The position numbers were made by a program, and so were the translations under genes. From positions 1 through 64,000 of the forward strand of contig PBNY01000025.1 in NCBI GenBank assembly GCA_002723385.1: a stretch of 64,000 bases of DNA, written 5' to 3'. Below the pieces are notes generated by a model. That model was not told where the DNA came from. It worked only from the letters and a program-made list of their open reading frames with translations, and ran no database searches. The stretch's first letter is position 1. The number at the start of each line of letters is the position of its first letter. Shown piece after piece: positions 51,703-64,000 of this stretch. The stretch comes from Oceanospirillaceae bacterium. GTDB lineage: Bacteria > Pseudomonadota > Gammaproteobacteria > Pseudomonadales > Oceanobacteraceae.

Positions 51703-53049
51703 ATGACTCATTCAAGAAACCTGCTGGCCCTGTTGATTGCTGCGGCTTTGCTTAGCGCCTGCGGTGGTAGCGGAGGCAGCAGTGGCGACGATACTGGTGC
51801 CAGTAAAGATGCAGACAATGGCGATCAAACCGGCGGTCCATCCGATGATGGTTCGTCTGGTGGCGACTCTTCTGGTGGGAACAACAGCATTCAGTTGCCC
51901 AGCAGCCTGGCGGGTAACGAGTTTCAGCTACAGTTCACCACCGCCAACAACGGCGCTCCCTTCAACCTGAACGACATCGTCACGGCTTCTTTTTCAGCTC
52001 CGGATACCCTCGCACTGGACTACAACCCGGATGCCAACGATGGCAATGAGCTGACCTTGGACAATGCGACTGAAGACAACGGTGAATATCGCTGGGTGGA
52101 TTCGGCAACCAGCGTTGCCTATGTGGTGTCTCTCAGTAATGACACCCTGAATGAGATCAACCTGTTTCCGGCCAACAGCAGCGCATTCCTGGGCCAGTTT
52201 ACGCCGTACAGCGACACTGGCGTGGCCAATCTGAATCTGGTCACGGCACTGGCAGGTACCTATCAGGTCGACTCGGTGACCCGTGGCAGCCACAGCCGCA
52301 ATACCGTCGTCATTGGTGACGATGGCCATATCGATTTCGATACCAATGTGCAGTTCGCCGCAACGCAAATTCAGGTGATCTACGATCGCACCAACATTAC
52401 TACCGAGCCACGGATTCAAATCAGCTACGGTGCGGATGACGATGCGGAAGTGATCAACCTGTATCTGACACCGGGTGACACCAGCACATTGGCATCGGTG
52501 CAATTCCGACACATCAACGGCTCGATTGATCTGGAAGTCGCGGTTTCCCCCCAATCGGATTCGTCTGACGGGGCAGGTTCAGGCTCAGGAGATGGTGATG
52601 GCTCTGGAGACGGTTCGGGTTCGGGCAACGGCACGGACTTGCTGAACGGCAACATGGGCATCGCTGCCAATGTGGCAGGCATGGACATCATCAAAACCCA
52701 AACCACGTTTAACTTTGTCAATGGCAGCAACATGGTAACGGCCAGCGCGACCGAGGATGGGATGTCCTGGTCAATGCAATTCCCCAACGCTTCTGGGACT
52801 TACGTCTGTGACGATGTGACGTCGGATGGCGACACCTCGACCGATACCTTCATTAACGTGGGTTTTATGGAGGATGGCAACGTTCGAATCGTGAATACCG
52901 ATCAGGCCAATAACCCAACACCCACATGCAGCATTCAGGTCACCAAAGACGACAGCAATTTTCAGGGCACCTTCTCGGGTCAATTATCCGGGCATGGCAA
53001 GCTGTACGCCGTCACCAATGGTCAGTTCAACTTCAACCTGAGTTTCTGA
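51703..53049 (+). CDS. large lipoprotein, unknown function
   Basis: This 448-residue lipoprotein has a signal ending LLSAC (about Cys20), then a Gly/Ser/Asp linker (GGSGGSSGDD...), a first beta-rich domain (about 60 to 285), a second flexible linker rich in Gly, Ser and Asp (about 288 to 306), and a C-terminal domain (about 310 to 448) with a Cys pair (YVCDDVTS ... PTCSIQ). Both domains look like extended beta-sheet surface modules. It is divergent from the kinase gene and ends in a strong terminator. No family recognised. Confidence 0.75.
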   Translation: MTHSRNLLALLIAAALLSACGGSGGSSGDDTGASKDADNGDQTGGPSDDGSSGGDSSGGNNSIQLPSSLAGNEFQLQFTTANNGAPFNLNDIVTASFSAPDTLALDYNPDANDGNELTLDNATEDNGEYRWVDSATSVAYVVSLSNDTLNEINLFPANSSAFLGQFTPYSDTGVANLNLVTALAGTYQVDSVTRGSHSRNTVVIGDDGHIDFDTNVQFAATQIQVIYDRTNITTEPRIQISYGADDDAEVINLYLTPGDTSTLASVQFRHINGSIDLEVAVSPQSDSSDGAGSGSGDGDGSGDGSGSGNGTDLLNGNMGIAANVAGMDIIKTQTTFNFVNGSNMVTASATEDGMSWSMQFPNASGTYVCDDVTSDGDTSTDTFINVGFMEDGNVRIVNTDQANNPTPTCSIQVTKDDSNFQGTFSGQLSGHGKLYAVTNGQFNFNLSF

Positions 53050-53089
53050 TCAGTCCCGACAAACATCACCTCTGCACACACACTCCATT

Positions 53090-53118
53090 GCCCGACTGCT
53101 CACTGATCGGGCTTTTTT
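53090..53118 (+). terminator. terminator of the large lipoprotein gene
   Basis: GCCCGA and TCGGGC pair around an 11-base loop and are followed by six T residues. Confidence 0.85.
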
Positions 53119-53247
53119 GTGTCTCGCTTTTTATCTCGTCTGCAGATCTTACCAATACGTCTCGGCTGGCGCTGAAAGCCTTGCACTTACTGTTTAAAGA
53201 CCGCACATTCAGTCTATACAACAAATATCCGATGAATGGAGAACAGC

Positions 53248-53796
53248 ATGGCAAGCGTAAGAAGCTATCAGGGCATGACCCCGAAACTGGGTGAACGAGT
53301 ATTTGTCGATTCAACCGCCGTAGTCATTGGCGACGTTGAAATCGGTGAAGACAGCTCGGTATGGCCCCTGACCGTGATTCGTGGCGACATGCACAAAATT
53401 CGCATCGGCGAACGCACCAGCGTTCAGGACGGCTCCATCCTGCACATCACCCACGCCAGTGACTACAACCCCGGCGGCTACCCGCTGATCATTGGCGATG
53501 ACGTCACCATTGGCCATCAGGCCATGCTGCATGGCTGCACCGTTGGCAACCGCGTTCTGATCGGCATGAAATCCATGATCATGGACGGCGCTGTGGTTGA
53601 AGACGAAGTCATCGTCGGTGCTGGTGCGACCGTCACACCAGGCAAGATATTGAAAAGTGGCTACGTCTACATGGGCAGCCCGGCCAAACAGGTACGCGAG
53701 CTGAGCGAGAAAGAGCGCAGCTTCTTCAAATACACAGCTGCCAACTACGCCAAGCTGAAAGACAAACACGCGGCTGAAGGTTACGCCGAGGATTGA
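53248..53796 (+). CDS. yrdA: gamma-carbonic anhydrase family protein YrdA
   Basis: This 182-residue left-handed beta-helix protein belongs to the gamma-carbonic anhydrase family. The metal-binding histidines are visible as SILHITHASD, IGHQAMLHGC. The hexapeptide repeats span about residues 15 to 150 and a C-terminal helix follows (LSEKERSFFKYTAANYAKLKDKH). Whether it hydrates CO2 or is an acyltransferase-like relative is not clear. The ATG at 53248 has GGAG seven bases upstream. It is a single gene. Confidence 0.92.
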   Translation: MASVRSYQGMTPKLGERVFVDSTAVVIGDVEIGEDSSVWPLTVIRGDMHKIRIGERTSVQDGSILHITHASDYNPGGYPLIIGDDVTIGHQAMLHGCTVGNRVLIGMKSMIMDGAVVEDEVIVGAGATVTPGKILKSGYVYMGSPAKQVRELSEKERSFFKYTAANYAKLKDKHAAEGYAED

Positions 53797-53816
53797 TCTT
53801 CCCCGTCAAACACAGG

Positions 53817-53867
53817 CGCTGTTGATTCCTGTGGCAGACCCCATGTGTCTGCCGCAGGAATTCAGCG
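53817..53867. repeat. long imperfect hairpin between yrdA and arsS
   Basis: A stem of about 20 bp (CGCTG, ATTCCTG and GGCAGAC paired with GTCTGCC, CAGGAAT and CAGCG; one bulge and one G-U) has loop CCCATGT. No T-tract follows, so it is not a standard terminator. Confidence 0.7.
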
Positions 53868-53984
53868 TCAGACCAACCACCATTCTTGATCAAGCGATCA
53901 TTATTTTCTGAATTCGCGTAAGAAATCCGCTCCAGCGTCGACCACACTGTAAGAGACGCCTTTTGCCTGGTACCGGAGCACCTT

Positions 53985-54935
53985 ATGCACGCCACCTTAC
54001 CCCTGCTGGAAATCACGGATTTTCCGGCCATTCATCGCAAACCGCTGGAAACCCTGCAAGTCAACCTGGGTTACCGATGCAACCAGCGTTGTTTGCACTG
54101 TCATGTGAATGCCGGGCCGACTCGCAAGGAGATGATGACGCGAACAACCCTGGAGCTGATTGTGCCGGTGTTAAAAGCACGCCAGATCAAGACGCTGGAT
54201 TTAACCGGTGGCGCCCCCGAATTGCATGAGGATTTCCGTTATCTGGTGGCCGAAGCTACAGCAGCCGGGGTCAAGGTGATGGATCGTTGCAACCTCACCA
54301 TTTTGTTTGAACCCGGCCAGGAAGGCTTGGCGGAGTTTCTCGCTGAGCACAAGGTGGAAGTGGTGGCGTCGATGCCTTGTTACTCACTGAAAAATGTTGA
54401 CCAGCAACGTGGTGAAGGAGTCTTCGACAAGAGCATCGCCGGGCTGCAAAAACTGAACACATTGGGATACGGCAAACCTGGTACCGGCCTGACGTTGAAT
54501 CTGGTCTATAACCCGTTAGGGCCGTCGCTGCCGCCCAACCAGCAGATGCTGGAAGCGGATTACCGCCGTGAGCTGAAAAGCCATTTCAATATCGAGTTCA
54601 CCCAGCTGTTTGCCTTGACCAATATGCCGATCAAACGTTTTGGTTCCACACTGATCTCCAAGGGCCAGTTCAACGACTATATGCACTTGCTGAAAGGCAA
54701 CTACCAGACCGCCAACCTCGACGGCCTAATGTGCCGTTCGCTGATCAGTGTCGACTGGCAAGGCAAGCTCTACGACTGCGACTTCAACCAGCAGCTCGAC
54801 CTGCCGCTTGGTGCAGGCTCCGGGCATCTGCGCGATTTGCTCAACGATTCCTTTGATAACCAGCCCATTGCGGTGGCTGACCATTGTTACGGCTGTACCG
54901 CCGGACAAGGCAGCAGCTGCGGCGGCGCTTTGTAA
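53985..54935 (+). CDS. arsS: arsenosugar biosynthesis radical SAM protein ArsS
   Basis: This 316-residue radical SAM enzyme has Cys32-x3-Cys36-x2-Cys39 (YRCNQRCLHCH) for the 4Fe-4S cluster. ArsS attaches a 5'-deoxyadenosyl group to dimethylarsenite, giving the precursor of arsenosugars. C-terminal auxiliary cysteines are present (MCRSLI, YDCDF, HCYGCTAGQGSSCGG), as in the family. The ATG has GGAG upstream. It starts the cluster of seven to eight arsenosugar-linked genes; the next gene begins 23 bases later. Confidence 0.9.
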   Translation: MHATLPLLEITDFPAIHRKPLETLQVNLGYRCNQRCLHCHVNAGPTRKEMMTRTTLELIVPVLKARQIKTLDLTGGAPELHEDFRYLVAEATAAGVKVMDRCNLTILFEPGQEGLAEFLAEHKVEVVASMPCYSLKNVDQQRGEGVFDKSIAGLQKLNTLGYGKPGTGLTLNLVYNPLGPSLPPNQQMLEADYRRELKSHFNIEFTQLFALTNMPIKRFGSTLISKGQFNDYMHLLKGNYQTANLDGLMCRSLISVDWQGKLYDCDFNQQLDLPLGAGSGHLRDLLNDSFDNQPIAVADHCYGCTAGQGSSCGGAL

Positions 54936-54958
54936 GGCCACGGAACAGGTACCTGACG

Positions 54959-57199
54959 ATGAAAAAACTTGCCTTGATCGCTGCTTTTGCCGCGCTGGTG
55001 TTCGGCTTCTTTGCTTTCGACTTGCATCAACTGCTGACGCTGGAAGGACTGAAAGCCGGTTGGGCTGACTTTGAAACCCAACGGGCTGCCGAGCCGATAC
55101 TCACTGCAGGATTATTTCTGCTGGCGTATGTGTTGGTGACGGCGCTGTCGCTGCCCGGTGCAGCGGTAATGACACTGGCCGCCGGAGCCTTGTTCGGCCT
55201 CAGCTGGGGCACCCTGATTGTGTCGTTCGCCAGCTCGATTGGCGCAACCCTCGCCTTTCTGGCCTCGCGGTACGTGTTGCGAGATTCAGTGCAAGCGCGT
55301 TTTGGTGATCGCTTGCAGGCCATCAACGAGGGCATGCGCAAGGACGGCGCTTTCTACCTGTTCACCTTGCGTCTGGTGCCGGTATTCCCGTTCTTTTTGA
55401 TCAATCTGCTGATGGGCCTGACGCCCATCAAGGCCGTGACTTTTTACCTCGTCAGTCAGGTTGGCATGTTCGCCGGAACCATCGTCTATGTGAACGCTGG
55501 CACCCAGCTGGCGCAGCTGGACAGTCTGTCGGGTATTTTGTCGCCGTCGTTGCTGCTGTCGTTTGCTCTGCTGGGAGTTTTCCCCTTGATCGCCAGGAAA
55601 ATTCTGGCCGTGATCAAGGCCCAGCGCGTGTATCAGGGCTATGAACGTCCAAAGCAATTTGACCGCAACCTGGTGGTGATCGGGGCCGGGGCCGGTGGAC
55701 TGGTCACGGCGTATATCGCTGCGGCGGTGAAAGCCAAGGTCACATTGATCGAGGCCAACAAGATGGGCGGCGACTGCCTGAACTATGGCTGCGTGCCCAG
55801 CAAGGCGCTGATCAAAAGTGCCAAGGTTGTGCATCAGATGCAGCACGCTGATCACTTTGGTCTTGAAAAAAGTGGCTTGGAGAAAAGCGGTCTTGAAAAG
55901 AGCGAATCAAAGGCAAGCAATTTAGAAAAACAGAAGCCAACCTTCTCATTCCGCAAGGTAATGGCCCGCGTGCATGAAGTAATCAAGGCCATCGAACCCC
56001 ACGACAGTGTCGAACGCTACACCAAGCTTGGCGTTGAGGTGATTCAGGGCTACGCCAGGGTTGTCGATCCCTGGACGGTGGAGATCCAGCTGAGCGACGG
56101 CGGCACCCAACGACTGACCACCCGTTCGATTGTGTTGGCTACCGGTGCCCGTCCAGCCGTGCCGCCGATTCCGGGTCTGGAAGAGGTCGGCTACGTCACC
56201 AGCGATACGCTGTGGGATACCTTTGCAGAACTGGATCAGGTTCCCAAACGCCTGGTGGTACTGGGTGGCGGGCCGATTGGTTGTGAACTGTCCCAGAGCT
56301 TTGCTCGCCTGGGTTCTGAGGTGATTCAGGTCGAACGCGGCAGCCGGGTGCTGGCGCGGGAGGATGAGGAAGTTTCCGAGCTGGCTGCCGATGCGCTTAT
56401 CGAATCTGGCGTTCAGTTGATGACCAACCACCAGGCCATTCGCTGCGAACGTGACGGCGACACCAAGCGTCTGATTCTGGCTCCGCTAGACGCCAACGGC
56501 ACAGTGCTGTCAGATGCTGAGGTCAGTATTGAATTTGACCAGCTGCTCTGTGCTACCGGCCGCGTCGCTCGCCTTGACGGGTATGGCCTTGAGAACCTCG
56601 GCATCGAAACCCAGCACACCATCGTCACCAACGAGTATCTGGAAACCCTGTACCCGAACATTTACGCCGCTGGCGACGTTGCCGGGCCGTATCAATTTAC
56701 CCATACCGCAGCGCATCAAGCCTGGTACGCAGCCGTGAATGCCCTGTTCGGCCAGTTCAAGAAGTTCAAGGTCGACTACCGTGTGATTCCGGCCACAACC
56801 TTTCTTGACCCGGAGGTGGCCCGTGTCGGCCTGAACGAGCAAGAGGCCAAAGCTCAGGGCATCGCCTATGAAGTCAGCCGTTATCCACTGGATGATCTGG
56901 ATCGTGCCATCACCGACGGCGCAGCTCACGGCTTTGTGAAAGTGCTGACGGAACCGGGTAAAGATCGCATCCTCGGCGTCACCATCGTGGGTGAACACGG
57001 CGGCGATTTGCTGGCGGAATTTGTATTGGCGATGAAACACGGCCTTGGGCTGAACAAGATTCTCGGCACCATTCACGCCTACCCGACCTGGGCGGAAGCG
57101 AACAAATACGTGGCTGGGGAATGGAAACGCGCCCATGCCCCGCAACAATTGCTGCGCTGGGTCGAGAAATACCACAACTGGAGACGCGGTCATGGCTAA
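54959..57199 (+). CDS. fusion of TVP38/TMEM64 membrane domain and mercuric-reductase-like flavoprotein
   Basis: This 746-residue protein has a TVP38/TMEM64 (DedA-like) membrane domain at about 1 to 220 (LPGAAVMTLAAGALFG, FTLRLVPVFPFFLINLLMGL) and a class-I pyridine nucleotide-disulfide oxidoreductase at about 235 to 740. FAD motif IGAGAGG is at 241 to 247, redox Cys273/Cys278 in GGDCLNYGCVPSKAL, NAD motif VVLGGGPIGCE near 438, and a C-terminal dimerisation domain. Between the redox Cys and the FAD site is a low-complexity GLEKS repeat (301 to 315). It is the second gene of the ars cluster and overlaps the DUF547 gene by eight bases. Substrate inferred to be a thiol or arsenic-linked disulfide. 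Confidence 0.88.
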   Translation: MKKLALIAAFAALVFGFFAFDLHQLLTLEGLKAGWADFETQRAAEPILTAGLFLLAYVLVTALSLPGAAVMTLAAGALFGLSWGTLIVSFASSIGATLAFLASRYVLRDSVQARFGDRLQAINEGMRKDGAFYLFTLRLVPVFPFFLINLLMGLTPIKAVTFYLVSQVGMFAGTIVYVNAGTQLAQLDSLSGILSPSLLLSFALLGVFPLIARKILAVIKAQRVYQGYERPKQFDRNLVVIGAGAGGLVTAYIAAAVKAKVTLIEANKMGGDCLNYGCVPSKALIKSAKVVHQMQHADHFGLEKSGLEKSGLEKSESKASNLEKQKPTFSFRKVMARVHEVIKAIEPHDSVERYTKLGVEVIQGYARVVDPWTVEIQLSDGGTQRLTTRSIVLATGARPAVPPIPGLEEVGYVTSDTLWDTFAELDQVPKRLVVLGGGPIGCELSQSFARLGSEVIQVERGSRVLAREDEEVSELAADALIESGVQLMTNHQAIRCERDGDTKRLILAPLDANGTVLSDAEVSIEFDQLLCATGRVARLDGYGLENLGIETQHTIVTNEYLETLYPNIYAAGDVAGPYQFTHTAAHQAWYAAVNALFGQFKKFKVDYRVIPATTFLDPEVARVGLNEQEAKAQGIAYEVSRYPLDDLDRAITDGAAHGFVKVLTEPGKDRILGVTIVGEHGGDLLAEFVLAMKHGLGLNKILGTIHAYPTWAEANKYVAGEWKRAHAPQQLLRWVEKYHNWRRGHG
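55859..55903 (+). repeat. three 15-bp in-frame repeats coding GLEKS
   Basis: Three tandem units each code Gly-Leu-Glu-Lys-Ser, with silent differences between units (GGTCTTGAAAAAAGT, GGCTTGGAGAAAAGC, GGTCTTGAAAAGAGC). They lie inside the flavoprotein domain of the fusion gene, in an insertion rich in Lys, Glu and Ser. Confidence 0.9.
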
Positions 57200-58022
57200 T
57201 CCATTTTCTGAATCCTCCTTGTCGGGACGTCAAAAACCCTGGCTAACTACGCTGTTGTTTTGTCTGATTACCTGGCCTGCCCAGGCCGATGAGTTTGATC
57301 ACAGTCTGTGGGACCAACTGCTGGTCGAGAATGTTTCGTCGGACAACGGTGGCCGTAGCACCAGCGTGGATTATCAGGGCATGGCCAACCAACGCAGTCA
57401 GCTAACAACCTATCTGACCGCGTTGGGCAAGGTCAGTCAGAAGCAGTTTGATCGCTGGGGCCAGGAGCAACAGCTGGCGTTTCTGATCAATGCTTATAAC
57501 GCCTGGACGGTGGAATTGATCCTGACCGAATGGCCCAAGCTGGATTCCATTCGGGATTTAGGCAGCTGGTTTCGCTCGCCCTGGAGCAAGAAATTTATTC
57601 CGCTGTTTGGCAAAACTGTGACACTGGATCATATCGAGCATGAGCTGATTCGAGGTTCAGGACGCTACAACAATCCATTGATCCATTTTGCCGTGAACTG
57701 CGCCAGCATCGGCTGTCCGGCCTTGCGTCAGGAGGCCTACGTCGGAGACACACTGGAAGCGCAACTGGATGAGCAGACCCGGTTATTTCTGTCCAACCGC
57801 GAGCAAAATCGCTTGAGTGGCGACACCCTGGCCATATCGTCGATTTTCAAATGGTATCGGGAAGATTTTGAGAAAGGCTGGCACGGTTATCGTCGTTTGG
57901 AAGACTTCTTCCTCGCCTACTCTGACACCATGGCGTTACCCGATTCTGCGGTGAAACGCCTTCTAACGGGCGATCAGGATATCGAGTATCTGGATTATGA
58001 CTGGCGACTTAACCAACGTTAA
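57192..58022 (+). CDS. DUF547 family exported protein
   Basis: This 276-residue protein has an N-terminal hydrophobic segment (about 16 to 33, WLTTLLFCLITWPAQA) and a DUF547 domain (QQLAFLINAYNAWTVELIL near 95, HFAVNCASIGCPALR near 175, SIFKWYREDFE). These proteins are common in marine bacteria beside arsenosugar or redox genes and have no proven activity; the conserved NCAS-IGCP Cys pair may be catalytic. The ATG at 57192 overlaps the upstream gene by eight bases and the next gene starts inside its end. Confidence 0.85.
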   Translation: MANPFSESSLSGRQKPWLTTLLFCLITWPAQADEFDHSLWDQLLVENVSSDNGGRSTSVDYQGMANQRSQLTTYLTALGKVSQKQFDRWGQEQQLAFLINAYNAWTVELILTEWPKLDSIRDLGSWFRSPWSKKFIPLFGKTVTLDHIEHELIRGSGRYNNPLIHFAVNCASIGCPALRQEAYVGDTLEAQLDEQTRLFLSNREQNRLSGDTLAISSIFKWYREDFEKGWHGYRRLEDFFLAYSDTMALPDSAVKRLLTGDQDIEYLDYDWRLNQR

Positions 58023-58767
58023 TACCTCTACCGAAGACAAGAGTCTCACGGTGTCTATTGTCGTGCCGGTATTGAACGAAATCGAGGCGTTGCCGGAATT
58101 GCTCAGGCATCTGTCGCGCTTGGATCAATCCAACGTCGTTAACCACGACATCGTGCTGGTGGATGGCGGCAGCAACGACGGCACAGTACAGGCCGCGACT
58201 CAGGCTGGATTTCGTGTGATTGAAAGTCCCAGAGGTCGCGCCCGACAGATGAACGCCGGAGCCAATGCGACCCGTGGCGACATCTTGCTGTTCTTGCATG
58301 CTGATACCCGGCTTCCCGCAAATGCGCTTGAGCAAGTACAATACGCGCTTGAACAGGCGCACGATGCTTTCGGACAGGAGATAGAAAAGCCACATCATCA
58401 GCCAAGCTGGGGGCGGTTTGATGTTCGTATCACTGGCGATGTCTTTACGCTCAAAATCGTTGCCCGGATGACGAATCTGCGCTCTCGCATCACCGGCATT
58501 GCAACCGGTGATCAGGCAATTTTTATCCATCGTTCGCTGTTTGATCAAGTGGGCGGCTTCCCGGACCAGCCTCTGATGGAAGATGTTGAGCTATCCCAGC
58601 GCTTGTGCCGAATCAAACGCCCGGTGTGTTTGCGCTCCCGAGTCGTCACATCCGGTCGACGCTGGATCGACAACGGCGTCTGGAAAACCATCGTGCTGAT
58701 GTGGCAACTGCGCTGGGCCTATTGGCGCGGTATTCCGGCGGAGCAACTGGCGGAGCGCTACAAATGA
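57997..58767 (+). CDS. TIGR04283-type arsenosugar glycosyltransferase
   Basis: This 256-residue family-2 glycosyltransferase matches the type repeatedly found with ArsS: SIVVPVLNE near residue 20, VDGGSNDGT near 51, GRARQMNAGA near 75 and LHADTRLP near 98, with GRFDVRI and QAIFIHRSLF downstream. The DxD-like LHADTR binds nucleotide-sugar and metal. It probably adds a sugar or builds the ribosyl moiety of arsenosugars; the exact reaction is not established. Its ATG overlaps the DUF547 gene by 26 bases and its stop overlaps the next ATG (ATGA). Confidence 0.87.
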   Translation: MTGDLTNVNTSTEDKSLTVSIVVPVLNEIEALPELLRHLSRLDQSNVVNHDIVLVDGGSNDGTVQAATQAGFRVIESPRGRARQMNAGANATRGDILLFLHADTRLPANALEQVQYALEQAHDAFGQEIEKPHHQPSWGRFDVRITGDVFTLKIVARMTNLRSRITGIATGDQAIFIHRSLFDQVGGFPDQPLMEDVELSQRLCRIKRPVCLRSRVVTSGRRWIDNGVWKTIVLMWQLRWAYWRGIPAEQLAERYK

Positions 58768-59390
58768 TGGCTTCCGATGTGCGTCCCATTCGGATTGTGA
58801 TTTTCGCCAAGGCACCACTGCCCGGATACGCCAAAACCCGGCTGATTCCTCAACTCGGACTGGATGGTTCCGCCAGATTGGCTTGCAAGCTGTTGCAACA
58901 CGCTATTGAACAGGCGTTAGCTGCCAACCTAGGCCAGGTTGAATTGTGTGTCAGCCCTTCGGAACACCACCCGGTATGGAAGCAGTTGGATTTGCCCTCG
59001 GAGCTGAGCTGGTCGTATCAGAGCGAAGGTGACCTCGGCGAGAGAATGGCCCGAGCCATCAAACGTGTGACTCAGAATGGAGAATCCATTCTGCTGATGG
59101 GCACAGACTGCCCGGATTTGGATGCTGAAACGCTGCGAGCGGCATCCAAAGCACTTGCAAGTCACGACGCCTGCCTGGTGCCCGTGCTGGATGGTGGTTA
59201 TTCGCTGGTGGGATTACACCATCCGCTGGAAGCCATATTCAGGGATATGCCCTGGAGCACGGAACAGGTGGGGCAGCTGACCCGGCAACGCATCGCCGCT
59301 GCTGGTAAAACACTGGCCGAGCTGGAGATTCTGTACGACATTGATGTACCTGCCGATTTGAATCACTTGCCCGACCACTGGTTTGAATGA
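58764..59390 (+). CDS. TIGR04282-type arsenosugar glycosyltransferase (DUF2064)
   Basis: This 208-residue nucleotidyl/glycosyltransferase-fold protein has IVIFAKAPLPGYAKTRLIP near residue 11, LLMGTDCPDLD near 116 and PVLDGGYSLVGLHHP near 142, all diagnostic of DUF2064/TIGR04282. It is the usual partner of the TIGR04283 enzyme in arsenosugar clusters. Start at 58764 (MMASDVRP) overlaps the upstream stop by four bases; the in-frame extension to 58605 lies inside the upstream gene. The reaction is inferred only. Confidence 0.88.
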   Translation: MMASDVRPIRIVIFAKAPLPGYAKTRLIPQLGLDGSARLACKLLQHAIEQALAANLGQVELCVSPSEHHPVWKQLDLPSELSWSYQSEGDLGERMARAIKRVTQNGESILLMGTDCPDLDAETLRAASKALASHDACLVPVLDGGYSLVGLHHPLEAIFRDMPWSTEQVGQLTRQRIAAAGKTLAELEILYDIDVPADLNHLPDHWFE

Positions 59391-59392
59391 AA

Positions 59393-59893
59393 TCAGAAAC
59401 TGTCCACAACCCACTGGGCCAGCAGTGATTTTTGCAGCATTTCGGGTTGGGTCACGGCCAGTTTTTCATCCAGATATCGCAGCCGACGGCTGAGCTCTCG
59501 CATCAGGTTGGCCTGAATCTGAATAAACTGTTCAGGGTCGTGTTGCCTCAGGGCGTACAGGTTGTCCGCCGAGATTTCCATCGCCTGACAGTCGTTGGTG
59601 GCCATGACCGTGGCACCGCGGGGCTGGTTATCGACGATGGCCATTTCACCGAAACAGTCACCGGGGTTCAGGTAACTCAGTCGGCGTAAATCCGGGTCGC
59701 ACTTTTTCAGCACTTCCGCTTCACCGGATTCAAGGATAAACAAAGAGGATGCGGGATCCCCTTCATTAAAAAAGGCATCTCCGAGCAGGATGGTGCGGGT
59801 TTCACAACGGCTTTCGATGAACTCCAGCGCTGATTCGCTCAGGGCACTGAAGATCGGCATGTTCTGCAACAACTTAAGGCGATTGGCATCCAT
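59393..59893 (-). CDS. cyclic-nucleotide-binding domain protein without a DNA-binding domain
   Basis: This 166-residue protein is a single cNMP-binding beta barrel (about 10 to 130): PIFSALSESALEFIE, NEGDPASSLFILESGEAEV, and the phosphate-binding cassette FGEMAIVDNQPRGATV. A helical tail (QANLMRELSRRLRYLDEKL) follows. The usual Crp-type winged helix is missing, so it is not a direct transcription factor. The gene is convergent with the DUF2064 gene at a distance of two bases. Ligand unknown. Confidence 0.85.
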   Translation of the reverse strand: MDANRLKLLQNMPIFSALSESALEFIESRCETRTILLGDAFFNEGDPASSLFILESGEAEVLKKCDPDLRRLSYLNPGDCFGEMAIVDNQPRGATVMATNDCQAMEISADNLYALRQHDPEQFIQIQANLMRELSRRLRYLDEKLAVTQPEMLQKSLLAQWVVDSF

Positions 59894-60063
59894 GGGTGTC
59901 TCCTGTCATTCCGCAATGTGAACGTATGGACTTTACATGCTAGTGCACTTGCCACTCATGAATGGTCTGCGAATGTGTTGTTTCAGACCGACTTGCTAAC
60001 AATGGACTTATTAGCCCCACCACTTCAATAACACGCCGCTATCGCAGTACTCTAACGCAGCAC

Positions 60064-60151
60064 AGGTCACTGCAAAGATTAGTCCAGCAGGAGTCCTCCG
60101 GTGACCGAGAGTCCGCATCGATAGAGCCGGTGCCCCGCAAACACTGTAAGA
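60064..60151 (+). promoter_or_regulatory. structured arsM leader resembling part of a cobalamin riboswitch
   Basis: The leader contains, in the order of the B12 riboswitch core, TCCGGTG (60097), TCCG (60112), AGCCGGTGCCCCGC (60125 to 60138) and ACTGTAAG (60143). The 3' half of that riboswitch, including the GGAGACCTGCC arm, is not seen, and ACA is inserted before ACTGTAAG. It may be a degenerate or variant element or chance. It lies within the 318-bp region between the cNMP gene and arsM, where I see no other gene. Confidence 0.3.
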
Positions 60152-60211
60152 AAGCAGCCATCTGAACGACCAACGAAAGTATCTCTTTTTTCCCGCTGGG
60201 AGCTTCTTCTT

Positions 60212-61240
60212 ATGCACGACGTTGTTCAGGACTACTACGGCAAACAGCTGCAAAGCAGCAACGATCTGAAAACCACCGCCTGTTGCGATGCCAGCGCCAT
60301 GCCCGCCTGGCTCAAGCCGCTGTTGTCACGTATCCACCCGGAAGTGCTTTCGCGTTACTACGGCTGCGGACTGGTCTGCCCAACCCAGCTCGAAGGCTGT
60401 CGTGTGCTGGATCTGGGTTCTGGCTCAGGCCGGGATGTGTACGCTCTGGCGCAGCTGGTCGGCTCCAGGGGGGAAGTGGTCGGTGTAGACATGACCGAAG
60501 AGCAACTCGACGTCGCCCGCCGTCATCAGAGCTGGCATGCGGACGCATTCGGATTCGACAACGTGCGTTTTATTCAGGGCTTTATCGAGAAACTGGACGA
60601 ACTCGATCTGGCACCGGAGTCCTTCGATGTGATTGTCTCCAACTGTGTGATCAACCTGTCACCGGAAAAGGCCGCTGTGCTGGAAGGTGTGCATCGTTTG
60701 TTAAAGCCCGGCGGTGAATTTTTCTTTTCTGATGTCTACGCGGATCGTCGCGTCCCGGAAGCGGTGCGGCTTGACCCGGTTCTGTACGGCGAGTGTCTGG
60801 GTGGCGCGCTGTACACAAGCGACTTTCTGAATCTGGCCAAAAGCAGCGGCTTCCGCGACCCTCGTCTGGTCGAAAGCCGACCTCTGGAAGTCACCGACGA
60901 TGAACTGGCGCGTCGGACTGGTAATCTGAATTTCTCATCCGCTACCTATCGCCTGTTCAAACTGGTGGGGCTGGAGCCGGAATGTGAGGACTATGGTCAG
61001 GCTGTGATCTATCAGGGGAGCGTGTCACAGTCACCGCATCGCTTTGAACTCGATGGCCACCACAGTATCGAAGCCGGTAAGGTGTTTCCTGTGTGTGGCA
61101 ACACCTGGATGATGCTGCGCAATACCCGCTTTGCTGAACACTTCCGTTTTATCGGCGACTTCAGCCAGCATTACGGTGCCTTTGACGGCTGCGGCTCTCC
61201 AGCTCTCGAAGCCGGTATTGAATCGGCACCTTGCTGCTAG
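60212..61240 (+). CDS. arsM: arsenite S-adenosylmethyltransferase ArsM
   Basis: This 342-residue methyltransferase converts arsenite stepwise to methylated and dimethylated arsenic using SAM. SAM motif LDLGSGSGRDVYAL lies at about 66 to 79. Conserved arsenic-binding cysteines are Cys145 (VSNCVINLS) and Cys195 (YGECLGGALY), with Cys52 in the YYGCG motif; an N-terminal CC pair (24, 25) and C-terminal CC complete the set. Its product is the substrate of ArsS. It has its own 318-bp upstream region and is followed by a hydroxylase gene 32 bases later. Confidence 0.93.
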   Translation: MHDVVQDYYGKQLQSSNDLKTTACCDASAMPAWLKPLLSRIHPEVLSRYYGCGLVCPTQLEGCRVLDLGSGSGRDVYALAQLVGSRGEVVGVDMTEEQLDVARRHQSWHADAFGFDNVRFIQGFIEKLDELDLAPESFDVIVSNCVINLSPEKAAVLEGVHRLLKPGGEFFFSDVYADRRVPEAVRLDPVLYGECLGGALYTSDFLNLAKSSGFRDPRLVESRPLEVTDDELARRTGNLNFSSATYRLFKLVGLEPECEDYGQAVIYQGSVSQSPHRFELDGHHSIEAGKVFPVCGNTWMMLRNTRFAEHFRFIGDFSQHYGAFDGCGSPALEAGIESAPCC

Positions 61241-61272
61241 CCCAACCAATCTGGCCATGTGAACATGGAACC

Positions 61273-62082
61273 ATGATGAACGAATTGCTCGATCACGAAC
61301 CTCAAGTCCGCATGGCGATGTTCTTGGGAGTCTTTGGCCTGATGATGCTGTGGGAAATCGGTTCGCCCCGCCGGGCCTTGTCGATGAGCAAACCCAAACG
61401 CTGGCTCAATAATCTCGGCCTGCTGGTGTTCAACAGTCTGGTATTGCGCCTGCTGTTTCCGGGCGCTGCGGTGGGCATTGCGGTTGTGGCAGAGTCCCGG
61501 CAATGGGGCTTGTTCCATCAGGACATTTTTGAGCATTGGCCAGCGGTTGTACTAACGGGTGTCAGCCTGTTATTGCTCGACGGTCTGATCTGGTGTCAGC
61601 ACCGCCTGTTTCACTCGGTTCCGGCATTGTGGCGCTTGCACCGGCTGCATCACGCCGATACCGATTTTGATGTCACCACTGCACTGCGCTTTCATCCACT
61701 GGAAATCTTGCTGTCGATTCTGATCAAGGCTGTGGTCGTGATTACTCTGGGGGTTCCGGTGCTTGCGGTGCTGGCTTTTGAGATTCTGCTGAACGCCAGC
61801 GCCATGTTTAACCACGCCAATATTCGGCTTTCAACCAGGACAGATCGTGTATTGCGCACACTGGTGGTCACACCGGACATGCACCGGGTGCATCATTCCT
61901 GGCACAGCGAAGAAACCCATTCAAACTTCGGTTTCTGCCTGTCCTGGTGGGACAAACTGGCGGGCACCTACATCGAACAGCCCAGAGACGGGCATCAGCA
62001 CATGGTGATTGGACTGCGGCAATTCCGCAAAGAACGGGATTCCCGACTGGATCACCTGCTGATGCAGCCGTTTGTGCGCTAA
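61273..62082 (+). CDS. sterol desaturase / fatty acid hydroxylase family membrane protein
   Basis: This 269-residue di-iron membrane enzyme has histidine boxes HRLFH (about 109), HRLHHAD (about 122) and HRVHHSWHSEE (about 202), with four or so membrane helices. These enzymes hydroxylate or desaturate lipids or sterol-like substrates using O2. The ATG at 61273 was chosen over ATG 61276 with no strong ribosome-binding site for either. Position directly after arsM suggests, but does not prove, work on an arsenolipid or a membrane lipid linked to the cluster. Confidence 0.85.
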   Translation: MMNELLDHEPQVRMAMFLGVFGLMMLWEIGSPRRALSMSKPKRWLNNLGLLVFNSLVLRLLFPGAAVGIAVVAESRQWGLFHQDIFEHWPAVVLTGVSLLLLDGLIWCQHRLFHSVPALWRLHRLHHADTDFDVTTALRFHPLEILLSILIKAVVVITLGVPVLAVLAFEILLNASAMFNHANIRLSTRTDRVLRTLVVTPDMHRVHHSWHSEETHSNFGFCLSWWDKLAGTYIEQPRDGHQHMVIGLRQFRKERDSRLDHLLMQPFVR

Positions 62083-62107
62083 TGTCTGAGAGAAGCGTCC
62101 CCTTGGC

Positions 62108-62833
62108 TCAACGCGTTTCCAGAATCGTAAAGCCTTTGGCAATCTCAAGAGGCGGCAGGTCGCCGTCCGGACCTGCGTATTCACCTTCAAATATGTGCAC
62201 GATGTCCGCGCTGTCATGACCGGTTTTTTCACGTGCCACGCAGACGATCCGGCCTGAGTTTTCTTCCATCCCCGCCTGACAGTACTGTCGATAGGTCGCC
62301 TCATCCGTAGAATAAAACAACTCGCTCATTGGCTGACCGACCTCGCCTTCCACCAGAGCTGCATTGGCACCGGACCGGGACACATAGGTTCCGGTTGCCG
62401 TTACGCCCATGCCCATACCACAGCCGCCTTGCTGCATGACACTGACCTCTCCTGCCGCAAAGCCGAATTCCAGCACACAATCCCACTCGTCGTTTTTGTA
62501 AATACCACCGGCGTTGGTCGGGTCATCGTTAAGAATAATCTCACCCGACGCTTCTCCCGTTCGCCCCTGTTCTGTCACTACCAGCAGGTTAAAAATCACC
62601 ATGCCTTCAGTCAGCTGAATATCCAGATCACCGGTTCCGGACGCGTATTTTCCATCCAGAGTGCCGTAATCGAACTCGGGTGCGGCGAGAACCGGTTGCT
62701 CAGCGGGTTGGTTCTCAGAGGCACTTTGCGGTGTATCAGAAACCGCATCAGGCTGCTTGTCGCACGCCACCAGCAGGGAAGAAATCAGTGCCACAGGCAG
62801 CACAGGGTTGCGCATCAATCGTAGCGTGGACAT
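62108..62833 (-). CDS. putative lipoprotein, unknown function
   Basis: This 241-residue lipoprotein has a signal ending LLVAC (about Cys24), a Pro/Gln/Ser-rich linker and a beta-rich domain with a Cys in WDCVLEFG, a Gly/Met run (QQGGCGMGMGVTATG) and paired Cys near the end (YCQAGMEENSGRIVCVAR). GAGGAG lies seven bases upstream of the ATG at 62833. It is convergent with the hydroxylase gene at 26 bases. Family not recognised. Confidence 0.7.
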   Translation of the reverse strand: MSTLRLMRNPVLPVALISSLLVACDKQPDAVSDTPQSASENQPAEQPVLAAPEFDYGTLDGKYASGTGDLDIQLTEGMVIFNLLVVTEQGRTGEASGEIILNDDPTNAGGIYKNDEWDCVLEFGFAAGEVSVMQQGGCGMGMGVTATGTYVSRSGANAALVEGEVGQPMSELFYSTDEATYRQYCQAGMEENSGRIVCVAREKTGHDSADIVHIFEGEYAGPDGDLPPLEIAKGFTILETR

Positions 62834-62878
62834 ACATCGCTCCTCTTCATCAATGAAACACGAATATCAGGAAAAAAT

Positions 62879-64000
62879 TCAGGTAAAAAACCAACCGCAG
62901 ATCAGAATGGCCGCCAGCATACCGGCGGCATCACAGGCCAATCCGGCCCACAAGGCGTAACGGATTCTGGCGATACCCACCACACCAAAATACACCGCCA
63001 ATACGTAAAACGTTGTTTCTGTACTGCCCTGCATCACCGCAGCCAGCAATCCGGCCAGAGAATCCACACCATGGGTGTTCATCACGTCCAGCATCATGGC
63101 GCGGGCACCGCTGCCGCTGAAGGGTTTCATAAAGGCGACTGGCATGGCATCGACAAACCAGGCGCTGATGCCCAGCCCATCCAACAGCCAGCGCAGGCCA
63201 TCCAGCAACAGGTCGAGTGCGCCACTGGCCCGAAACACTCCGACTGCCACCAGATAGGGAATCAACTGCACCGCCGTTTCAAAGCCACTTTTGGCTCCAG
63301 CGACAAAGTCTTCATAAACCGGGCGCTTCCGTTGGAGGCCAATGGCGATAAATCCACAAATCACCAGCATCAGAATGCCGTTGGCCAACTGACCAGACAC
63401 CCCGGACAATTGCTCAACGGGCAAGGCCCCCAGCCAGAACACCAGGGAGGCGACCAGGCTAACCAGTCCGCCCAGATAGGCCAGAATCACCAGATCCAGC
63501 CGAATCTTCTGCAGCCACATCACCAGCAACAGGCCGGTGAGTGTCGATGCCAGAGTCGCCATCAGAATCGGCAGAAAGACGTCCGCCGGGCTGGCGGCTC
63601 CAAGTTGCGCGCGGTACATAAAGATGGTCACAGGGAGCAAGGTGACCGAAGACGTATTCAGCACCAGAAACAGAATCTGGGCATTACTGGCGGTATCCTT
63701 GACCGGATTCAAGGCTTGCAACGCCTGCATCGCCTTGATCCCCAGCGGTGTAGCGGCATTATCCAGCCCGAGCATATTGGCGGCCAGGTTCATGGTGACA
63801 GCACCTTGTGCTTCATGCCCCTGGGGAACTTCCGGCATCAGGCGGCGAAACAAGGGCGCCAGACCACGTCCAAGCCATTGCACCAGCCCTGCTTTCTCAG
63901 CAATGGCAAACAATCCGGACCACAGTGCCAACAGGCCAACCAGACCAATAGCAATCTCAACCGCCAGTTTGGCCATATCAAAGCTGGCAGTGACCAGAGC
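62879..64000 (-). CDS. fused SpmA/SpmB-type nucleoside recognition domain protein (5' end missing)
   Basis: This multi-helix membrane protein, at least 374 residues within the window, joins two nucleoside-recognition (Gate) domains. The first half has WSGLFAIAEKAGLVQWLGRGLAPLFRRLMPEVP and LAANMLGLDNAATPLGIKAMQ (SpmA-like), the second AGAKSGFETAVQLIPYLVAVGVFRASGALD and KPFSGSGARAMML (SpmB-like). The reading frame stays open upstream of the ATG at 63976, and SpmA homologues have more N-terminal residues, so the true start is beyond the right edge. In non-sporulating bacteria it is probably a transporter. Confidence 0.85.
   Translation of the reverse strand, partial: ALVTASFDMAKLAVEIAIGLVGLLALWSGLFAIAEKAGLVQWLGRGLAPLFRRLMPEVPQGHEAQGAVTMNLAANMLGLDNAATPLGIKAMQALQALNPVKDTASNAQILFLVLNTSSVTLLPVTIFMYRAQLGAASPADVFLPILMATLASTLTGLLLVMWLQKIRLDLVILAYLGGLVSLVASLVFWLGALPVEQLSGVSGQLANGILMLVICGFIAIGLQRKRPVYEDFVAGAKSGFETAVQLIPYLVAVGVFRASGALDLLLDGLRWLLDGLGISAWFVDAMPVAFMKPFSGSGARAMMLDVMNTHGVDSLAGLLAAVMQGSTETTFYVLAVYFGVVGIARIRYALWAGLACDAAGMLAAILICGWFFT

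Follow-up and report, generated by a model that had tools for sequence, protein, structure and literature searches.

A shared, predicted ECF-type promoter motif ahead of both operons of a bacterial arsenosugar locus

Why should genes for a membrane-associated reductase, a DUF547 protein and a hydroxylase accompany the genes for arsenosugar synthesis? The question is raised by a locus at positions 53,985 to 62,082 of a 64,000-nucleotide stretch of DNA from an Oceanospirillaceae bacterium (contig PBNY01000025.1), which we call the window (C25:1-64000 in a draft genome of 3.59 Mb that is 90% complete). A first-pass annotation made from the letters of the window had named eight genes here and proposed that those beyond the arsenosugar genes proper act in later steps of synthesis, in export or in arsenolipid assembly. 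Family profile and sequence matches place all eight genes where that annotation had them, and the locus is a genuine arsenosugar locus of known kind: arsS and the genes for the TIGR04283 and TIGR04282 proteins, the three arsenosugar genes described in NCBIfam, are present with scores over their family cut-offs. To this set the locus adds a VTT/reductase gene, a DUF547 gene, arsM and a hydroxylase gene, an arrangement in two operons and a common motif of the extracytoplasmic function (ECF) promoter type.

We favor, with some reserve, the reading that this is an arsenosugar (possibly arsenosugar-lipid) pathway in two operons served by SigE/RpoE2-type ECF promoters, with the sigma factor held by a small zinc anti-sigma protein. 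New in this is the evidence for both operons in a SigE/RpoE2-type regulon; a reassignment of one enzyme is plausible as well. The two operons would be arsS-VTT/reductase-DUF547-GT2-TIGR04282 and arsM-hydroxylase. The features are as follows.

53918..53943, plus strand: predicted ECF (SigE/RpoE2-type) promoter of the arsS operon, GTAAGAA-N14-CGACC, 67 nt 5' of the ATG
60145..60173, plus strand: predicted ECF promoter of the arsM operon, TGTAAGAA-N14-CGACCAA, 67 nt 5' of the ATG
53985..54935, plus strand: arsS, radical SAM enzyme of arsenosugar synthesis (TIGR04167, 465 bits, cut-off 300)
54959..57199, plus strand: fusion of a VTT (DedA/TVP38-type) membrane domain and a flavin adenine dinucleotide (FAD)-dependent disulfide reductase, 746 amino acids (PF09335, PF07992, PF02852); the ATG at 54959 is the likely start, with one extra codon if counted from 54956
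57192..58022, plus strand: DUF547 protein with an N-terminal signal-like segment, judged by eye (PF04784, 91 bits)
57997..58767, plus strand: TIGR04283 GT2 glycosyltransferase (270 bits, cut-off 182)
58764..59390, plus strand: TIGR04282/DUF2064 protein (199 bits, cut-off 134)
60212..61240, plus strand: arsM, arsenite S-adenosylmethionine methyltransferase (best solved-structure sequence match 5evj)
61273..62082, plus strand: FA_hydroxylase/sterol-desaturase-type membrane hydroxylase, 3' of arsM (PF04116, 94 bits)
59393..59893, minus strand: cyclic-nucleotide-binding (cNMP-binding) protein between the two operons (PF00027)

A motif shared by the two operons

The five genes of the first plus-strand run, arsS through TIGR04282, overlap or nearly touch; the arsM-hydroxylase pair follows on the same strand, with the cNMP gene lying between the runs on the opposite one. 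The repeat upstream of both arsS and arsM, CACTGTAAGARA, was first treated as a possible product of chance, with 2 of 100 shuffles reaching two matches, and relatives were then compared. It yielded the motif TGTAAGAA-N14/15-CGACTAA.

Two sets of arsS loci were used. For set 1, 194 genomes of the order were searched with TIGR04167, and 74 of them gave matches over the cut-off; drawn evenly from this one order, it comprises 78 fetched loci, 77 besides our own. Set 2 comprises the best 80 of at least 589 confirmed stretches, all named loci, mainly from Beta- and Gammaproteobacteria. Together they supply 157 other arsS loci, counts from which are not rates for all bacteria, and they overlap, some genomes being in both; L186 and L048, for example, have contigs of equal length (72,625 bases).

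The first motif scan covered 98 loci and 1.81 Mb (the 78 arsS loci, our own included, and 20 fusion loci). The strict motif matched 15 times, and 13 of these matches fell within 57-144 nt before a gene: arsS in five cases, arsM in three (one being the window's), VTT/reductase in two, ECF-gene operons in two and another gene in one. Four controls (reversed, swapped and two wrong spacings) gave 0 matches each. Genome-wide, the arsM promoter of the window is one of two strict matches, against 0 for the control. Strict matches numbered 20 in the 80 loci of set 2, 15 of them near the start of a pathway gene, in a range reaching 220 nt upstream of the mechanical start and 150 nt into the gene (arsS 8, reductase 3, 5'-methylthioadenosine (MTA) phosphorylase 3, arsM 1), and the same four controls again gave 0.

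A relaxed form of the motif extended this pattern. In set 2, 37 of its 54 matches lay near pathway starts, compared with 2 of 41, 0 of 8 and 0 of 9 for controls. When genes were counted instead, the relaxed motif lay within 200 nt upstream of 9/259 core and 3/1039 other genes in set 1 (p 6e-5) and of 28/299 core and 4/931 other genes in set 2 (p 3e-14), by Fisher tests that ignore relatedness. These upstream counts come from greedy gene calls, which kept 75/77 and 73/80 arsS genes and left out genes under 100 amino acids that lacked a match. Across 39 sites, conservation extends to positions that the search did not fix: T (0.85) ahead of GTAAG, A (0.67) and A (0.82) following it, and T (0.66), A (0.76) and A (0.84) following CGAC.

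The relaxed motif precedes arsS at 5/21 (set 1) and 13/47 (set 2) loci that have VTT plus reductase, and at 1/56 and 6/33 loci that do not. The VTT/reductase pair carries the motif by itself in L099, L115, L188 and L255, as does the MTA phosphorylase gene in L188 and L192. Among the 20 fusions away from arsS, two have the motif (L115, L119).

A candidate sigma factor and its other predicted targets

Searched with GTAAGAA-N14-CGACY, the bacterium's own genome gave nine matches and the reversed control two; because of these control matches, about two of the nine sites may be due to chance. The sites lie before arsS, before arsM and before two genes for HvfA-type, EGKCG-repeat ribosomally synthesized and post-translationally modified peptides (RiPPs), one on C96 (in the region L137:1511-4536) and one on C4 (L171). 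The remaining ones precede redoxin, MlaC-family, YceI-family, LysR-like (judged by eye) and HAMP-domain genes. One HvfA-type RiPP gene is followed by an MNIO enzyme gene. The one on C96 is followed by DoxX-like and redoxin-like genes, identified by eye, and adjoins a pair of genes for an ECF sigma factor and an anti-sigma protein.

C96, L137:3943-4536: ECF sigma factor (TIGR02943, 243.5 bits, cut-off 162.2)

The anti-sigma gene comes after the sigma gene (NF052368, 74.3 bits, cut-off 50; PF13490), and its product has a zinc motif of C4, H30, C34 and C37, counted from the second ATG. The sigma factor is 55-63% identical to sigma factors encoded within 5 kb of arsS in L041, L045, L187, L191 and L195; L187 and L195 come from strains of Caldimonas manganoxidans and Pseudogulbenkiania subflava.

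These features recall known systems of Neisseria meningitidis and Haemophilus influenzae. The Neisseria SigE consensus is given as GTMAGBWTT, a spacer of 12-13 and CGTCTAAH (PMC2893595); counted in the same way, the present motif reads GTAAG, four bases, a spacer of 12-13 and CGACTAA. With Neisseria SigE/NMB2145 and Haemophilus RpoE2/HrsE it thus shares the promoter form GTAAG-N16/17-CGNC, and a DoxX-type operon in the regulon is common to them as well. The Neisseria anti-sigma protein NMB2145 has Cys4, His30, Cys34 and Cys37, the same four residues as ours (PMC2893595). The present system differs in having CGAC and not CGTC as its -10 box and in predicted targets that include arsS and arsM. 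The tie between our sigma factor and the Neisseria and Haemophilus proteins is one of anti-sigma motif, promoter and family, not of direct comparison. From the motif match we infer the pairing of sigma factor and promoters: the bacterium's own sigma factor is predicted to read those of arsS and arsM. The open-licence literature that we searched held no link between an arsenosugar gene and a sigma factor, which does not imply absence in print. The string "arsen" is absent from the Haemophilus RpoE2 paper (PMC7907618); the Neisseria paper was not searched for it.

What would such a sigma factor respond to? The cluster seems to belong to a regulon for redox/thiol stress, and trivalent arsenicals could plausibly attack a zinc site that has three thiols. 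In Haemophilus, RpoE2 responds to hypochlorous acid (HOCl) and H2O2 (PMC7907618); in the Neisseria work, oxidative stimuli left SigE expression unaltered (PMC2893595). The rpoE2 induction by these oxidants, and the sites before two HvfA-type RiPP, redoxin, MlaC-family and YceI-family genes in our genome, agree with another account, in which the motif marks a general envelope or oxidative-stress regulon that answers to oxidants or metals rather than arsenic and carries arsenosugar synthesis as a passenger. We regard this as quite possible, if short of probable. Relatives of the sigma gene near arsS in several Betaproteobacteria and at other loci speak against it, as does the absence of the motif from the four fusions of L111-L114, which lie in the absence of arsS.

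More tentatively, we offer a single joint reading in which many Proteobacteria make arsenosugars in response to redox stress. Oxidants or trivalent arsenicals would strip zinc from the three-thiol site of the anti-sigma protein and so free the SigE/RpoE2-type sigma factor. The freed factor would drive arsM, arsS, an MTA-phosphorylase-type enzyme, the TIGR04282 nucleotidyltransferase and the membrane VTT/reductase, with HvfA-type metal-binding RiPPs and redoxins driven alongside. A regulon defined by its promoter reaches beyond adjacency: it names as candidates the MTA phosphorylase, TIGR04282 as an activating enzyme and the VTT/reductase. It also would give a physiological cue: oxidative or thiol stress would prompt arsenosugar synthesis, which would then not serve solely as detoxification under ArsR. 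If true, one sigma factor would join arsenic sugars to HvfA-type metal-binding peptides.

An ECF sigma factor relative also stands next to arsS in L099:11290-14622, beside a further gene set that we take to be DoxX, DUF2063, DUF692 and DUF2282.

Conservation of the neighbors of arsS

Neighbors were counted as relatives within 8 kb of arsS (set 1, n=77; set 2, n=80). GT2 genes are near arsS at 63/77 and 60/80 loci (123/157) and TIGR04282 genes at 64/77 and 56/80 (120/157), so the companionship of both with arsS exceeds chance. VTT plus reductase, in any form, occurs at 21/77 and 47/80 (68/157), ArsM at 18/77 and 22/80, DUF547 at 12/77 and 18/80 (30/157), MTA phosphorylase at 10/77 and 19/80 (29/157), the hydroxylase at 6/77 and 3/80 (9/157) and ArsC at 5/77 and 1/80. 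The carbonic-anhydrase-like gene has relatives at 1/77 and 1/80 (2/157) and the cNMP protein at 0/77 and 0/80. Conservation with arsS thus holds in part for VTT/reductase, weakly for DUF547 and rarely for the hydroxylase, and fails for the cNMP gene, which with 0/157 loci is probably not a member of the system. A lipoprotein gene and a gene presumably of nucleoside-recognition type were likewise set aside, with no relative near arsS at the 157 loci.

Two f24 genomes, G023 and G171, hold arsS-arsM (L052; L061) apart from VTT/reductase-DUF547-GT2-TIGR04282 (L124; L123), which suggests that the two halves of the locus belong together. The locus is also split in G123 (L055, L122), where arsM was not seen adjoining arsS. 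As separate observations, in L041, L045 and L070 arsM is followed by an LMWP-family arsenate-reductase-like gene, together with PstS- and PstC-like uptake genes, and in L119 by an ArsC-like LMWP-family gene, with genes of similar size following.

With the window's VTT/reductase fusion as query, we found 107 full-length relatives in 104 of the 194 genomes. The fusion is present in 59 of 74 arsS genomes and in 45 of 120 genomes without arsS (Fisher p 1e-8, relatedness again ignored); given the latter, it is not arsenosugar-specific. Nineteen of the 107 lie within 12 kb of arsS, against an expectation of about 0.4 for the 62 fusions in arsS genomes. This linkage, the 68 loci with VTT plus reductase near arsS and the hydroxylase genes that adjoin arsS or arsM in L092, L096, L098, L099, L191 and L231 are what favors the first-pass proposal that the VTT/reductase, DUF547 and hydroxylase genes are dedicated to later steps in making or exporting arsenosugars or arsenolipids. 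We nevertheless consider it unlikely. In L111-L114 (f27 genomes) a fusion 76% identical to the window's forms an operon with DUF547, the same module in a different context, with MFS and TauE genes and, in three of the four, LysR genes; the best ArsS match in these genomes is below the cut-off, and the fusion and DUF547 are therefore not dedicated arsenosugar enzymes. Moreover, at 56 of the 77 set-1 loci the 8 kb around arsS contain no VTT plus reductase, and a tree does not split the fusions into a linked and an unlinked clade. That tree, of 56 linked and 20 unlinked fusions, came from a quick search and has 20 of its 73 inner branches drawn open; in it the label is clustered all the same, changing 9 times against a shuffled mean of 17.8 (0 of 500 shuffles as low).

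That clustering of the label could also mean that VTT/reductase stays with arsS as a neutral neighborhood in related genomes. This strikes us as very improbable: the pair recurs in Beta- and Gammaproteobacteria, fused or separate, and has the motif by itself at the four loci named above. The earlier proposal is borne out in part: the shared motif supports co-regulation of the extra operon genes, though a catalytic, export or arsenolipid role is not supported. In the co-regulated pathway that we favor, VTT/reductase, DUF547 and hydroxylase would not be core steps but would serve the same stress regulon in accessory roles at the membrane.

The reductase domain behind the earlier label "flavoreductase" is present and is better called an FAD disulfide reductase. 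The best solved-structure sequence match of the fusion is mercuric reductase; it scores under the MerA TIGR02053 cut-off (355.5 bits versus 454.45), and the C-terminal vicinal Cys pair that is a feature of MerA is absent, its last Cys being residue 531 of 746. The reductase part has a CX4C pair (C273, C278) and a Tyr where the aligned mercuric reductase has Tyr, at a position that is a catalytic His in related reductases. Cys is absent from the VTT part, which disfavors a thiol relay through it. As a domain combination the fusion is known: DedA COG0398 with PF07992/PF02852 is reported as the commonest COG0398 fusion (PMC10127716), and the window's fusion, matched by Pfam domains and not by COG0398 membership, has the same Pfam domains. 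That paper carries no arsenic link ("arsen", 0 occurrences).

Fusions were also seen beside radical SAM proteins other than ArsS. In L129:11200-12162 the fusion is directly next to one that weakly resembles the Rv1681 family, and in L130:11192-12106 it is directly next to one recognized as radical SAM by clustering only, at a locus that also has arsM and an ECF sigma factor. An apparent ArsS-VTT fusion in L233 was not used, since GC-rich DNA there gives a long open frame in which the reductase part changes frame.

In DUF547, C170 and C175 are invariant in 26 sequences. Its model (predicted local distance difference test, pLDDT, 86) gave a best Foldseek E of 3.1, a best VIA Z of 4.3 among Foldseek's candidates and a best sequence profile E of 0.033; these values do not show a new fold.

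Enzymes of the pathway and the balance of evidence

ArsM would make dimethylarsenic. It matches the solved arsenite methyltransferase 5evj (E 1.4e-102, residues 4-336) with the Cys of four motifs aligned, and scores under the cut-offs of the NCBIfam arsenosugar ArsM family NF038099 (86 bits versus 400) and of the PRK11873 arsenite methyltransferase (173 bits versus 263). ArsS, in which the radical SAM CxxxCxxC is present (C32, C36 and C39 invariant in 8 sequences), is the putative enzyme that adenosylates dimethylarsenic. To our knowledge, the steps after ArsS have not been worked out. A radical SAM enzyme is reported to adenosylate arsenic in oxo-arsenosugar synthesis, and the reference cited for this names ArsS in its title (PMC12159101).

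Both TIGR04283 and TIGR04282 had been called glycosyltransferases, in keeping with their database names; of the two, TIGR04283 alone looks like one. The TIGR04282 model (pLDDT 95) finds its best fold matches among nucleotidyltransferases, with VIA Z scores of 24.9 to 3cgx (a putative nucleotide-diphospho-sugar transferase), 21.3 to 2i5e and 20.8 to 3-phosphoglycerate guanylyltransferase; other matches shown include Rv2983 (presumably FbiD), IspD, TarI, GlmU and similar nucleotidyltransferases. Its sequence matches are also to nucleotidyltransferases, and seven of its residues (K16, P18, K24, R26, L27, D115 and D143) do not vary across 24 sequences. It is alike in fold and sequence to CofC, Rv2983 and 3-phosphoglycerate guanylyltransferase, with a weak profile match that stays under the CofC TIGR03552 cut-off (42.5 bits versus 105). 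Nucleotidyl- and glycosyltransferases share GT-A-type folds, and the fold match does not exclude a glycosyltransferase. With that and its NCBIfam name in its favor, TIGR04282 could be a true glycosyltransferase acting in sequence with TIGR04283 on different sugars; the nucleotidyltransferase matches, the CofC-like profile score and the annotation of a TIGR04282 gene as fbiD in one paper (PMC8801600) make this improbable.

We propose instead that TIGR04282 makes a nucleoside diphosphate (NDP)-activated arsenic sugar for the GT2 enzyme. MTA phosphorylase normally acts on MTA, the sulfur analogue of what ArsS makes. The presence of MTA phosphorylase near arsS at 29 loci, together with the nucleotidyltransferase likeness of TIGR04282, suggests a path from arsenic-bearing ribose 1-phosphate through NDP-arsenic-ribose to GT2 transfer. 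We infer these substrates and this order of steps as follows: a nucleoside phosphorylase would remove the base from the ArsS product to leave arsenic-bearing ribose 1-phosphate, TIGR04282 would activate this with a nucleoside triphosphate, and TIGR04283 would transfer the arsenic-bearing ribose to glycerol, glycerol phosphate or a phospholipid.

Several observations weigh against a SigE/RpoE2-type arsenosugar regulon of this kind. The motif was first worked out on set 1, with which set 2 shares some genomes; three control patterns precede 2/299 core genes in set 2, with 0/259 in set 1. Most arsS genes lack the motif, its relaxed form preceding just 6/75 (set 1) and 17/73 (set 2) of those called. 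In 35 chosen whole genomes the strict motif occurs 36 times and the reversed control 44 times; being no commoner than its control there, it is informative only at these loci. An ECF sigma factor is near arsS at just 4/77 and 15/80 loci, and the sigma gene of our genome (C96) is unlinked to the window. As to the fusion, no arsS lies within 12 kb of 88 of the 107 full-length relatives, and arsS is missing from 45 of 104 fusion-bearing genomes. Finally, the MTAP family search of our genome gave S-methyl-5'-thioinosine phosphorylase only (339 bits, cut-off 223; below the MTAP cut-off), a gene that is unlinked to the window and has no motif match on its contig.

The first-pass annotation had also reported no arsR, arsenite pump or arsenate reductase gene in the window, and this agrees with our searches, in which Acr3, LMWP-type ArsC, PF03960 ArsC and the ArsR-type HTH family PF01022 were unmatched on the contig (ArsB was not searched). 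Elsewhere in the genome, on C92, acr3 adjoins an LMWP-family gene. A possible GT2-TIGR04282 fusion in L107 consists of partial matches only and is not claimed. A structured RNA upstream of arsM or arsS was considered and dropped, with no Rfam match at E 5 in 53000-64000, and the region upstream of arsM has no unusual fold (z 1.75). Upstream of arsS, the fold z-score of 53797-53990 is -4.99 against 200 shuffles; this region contains one further feature, which is very stable and has no clear T run.

53815..53869, plus strand: long hairpin in the gap from the gamma-carbonic-anhydrase-like gene to the arsS promoter, a possible boundary (fold z-score)

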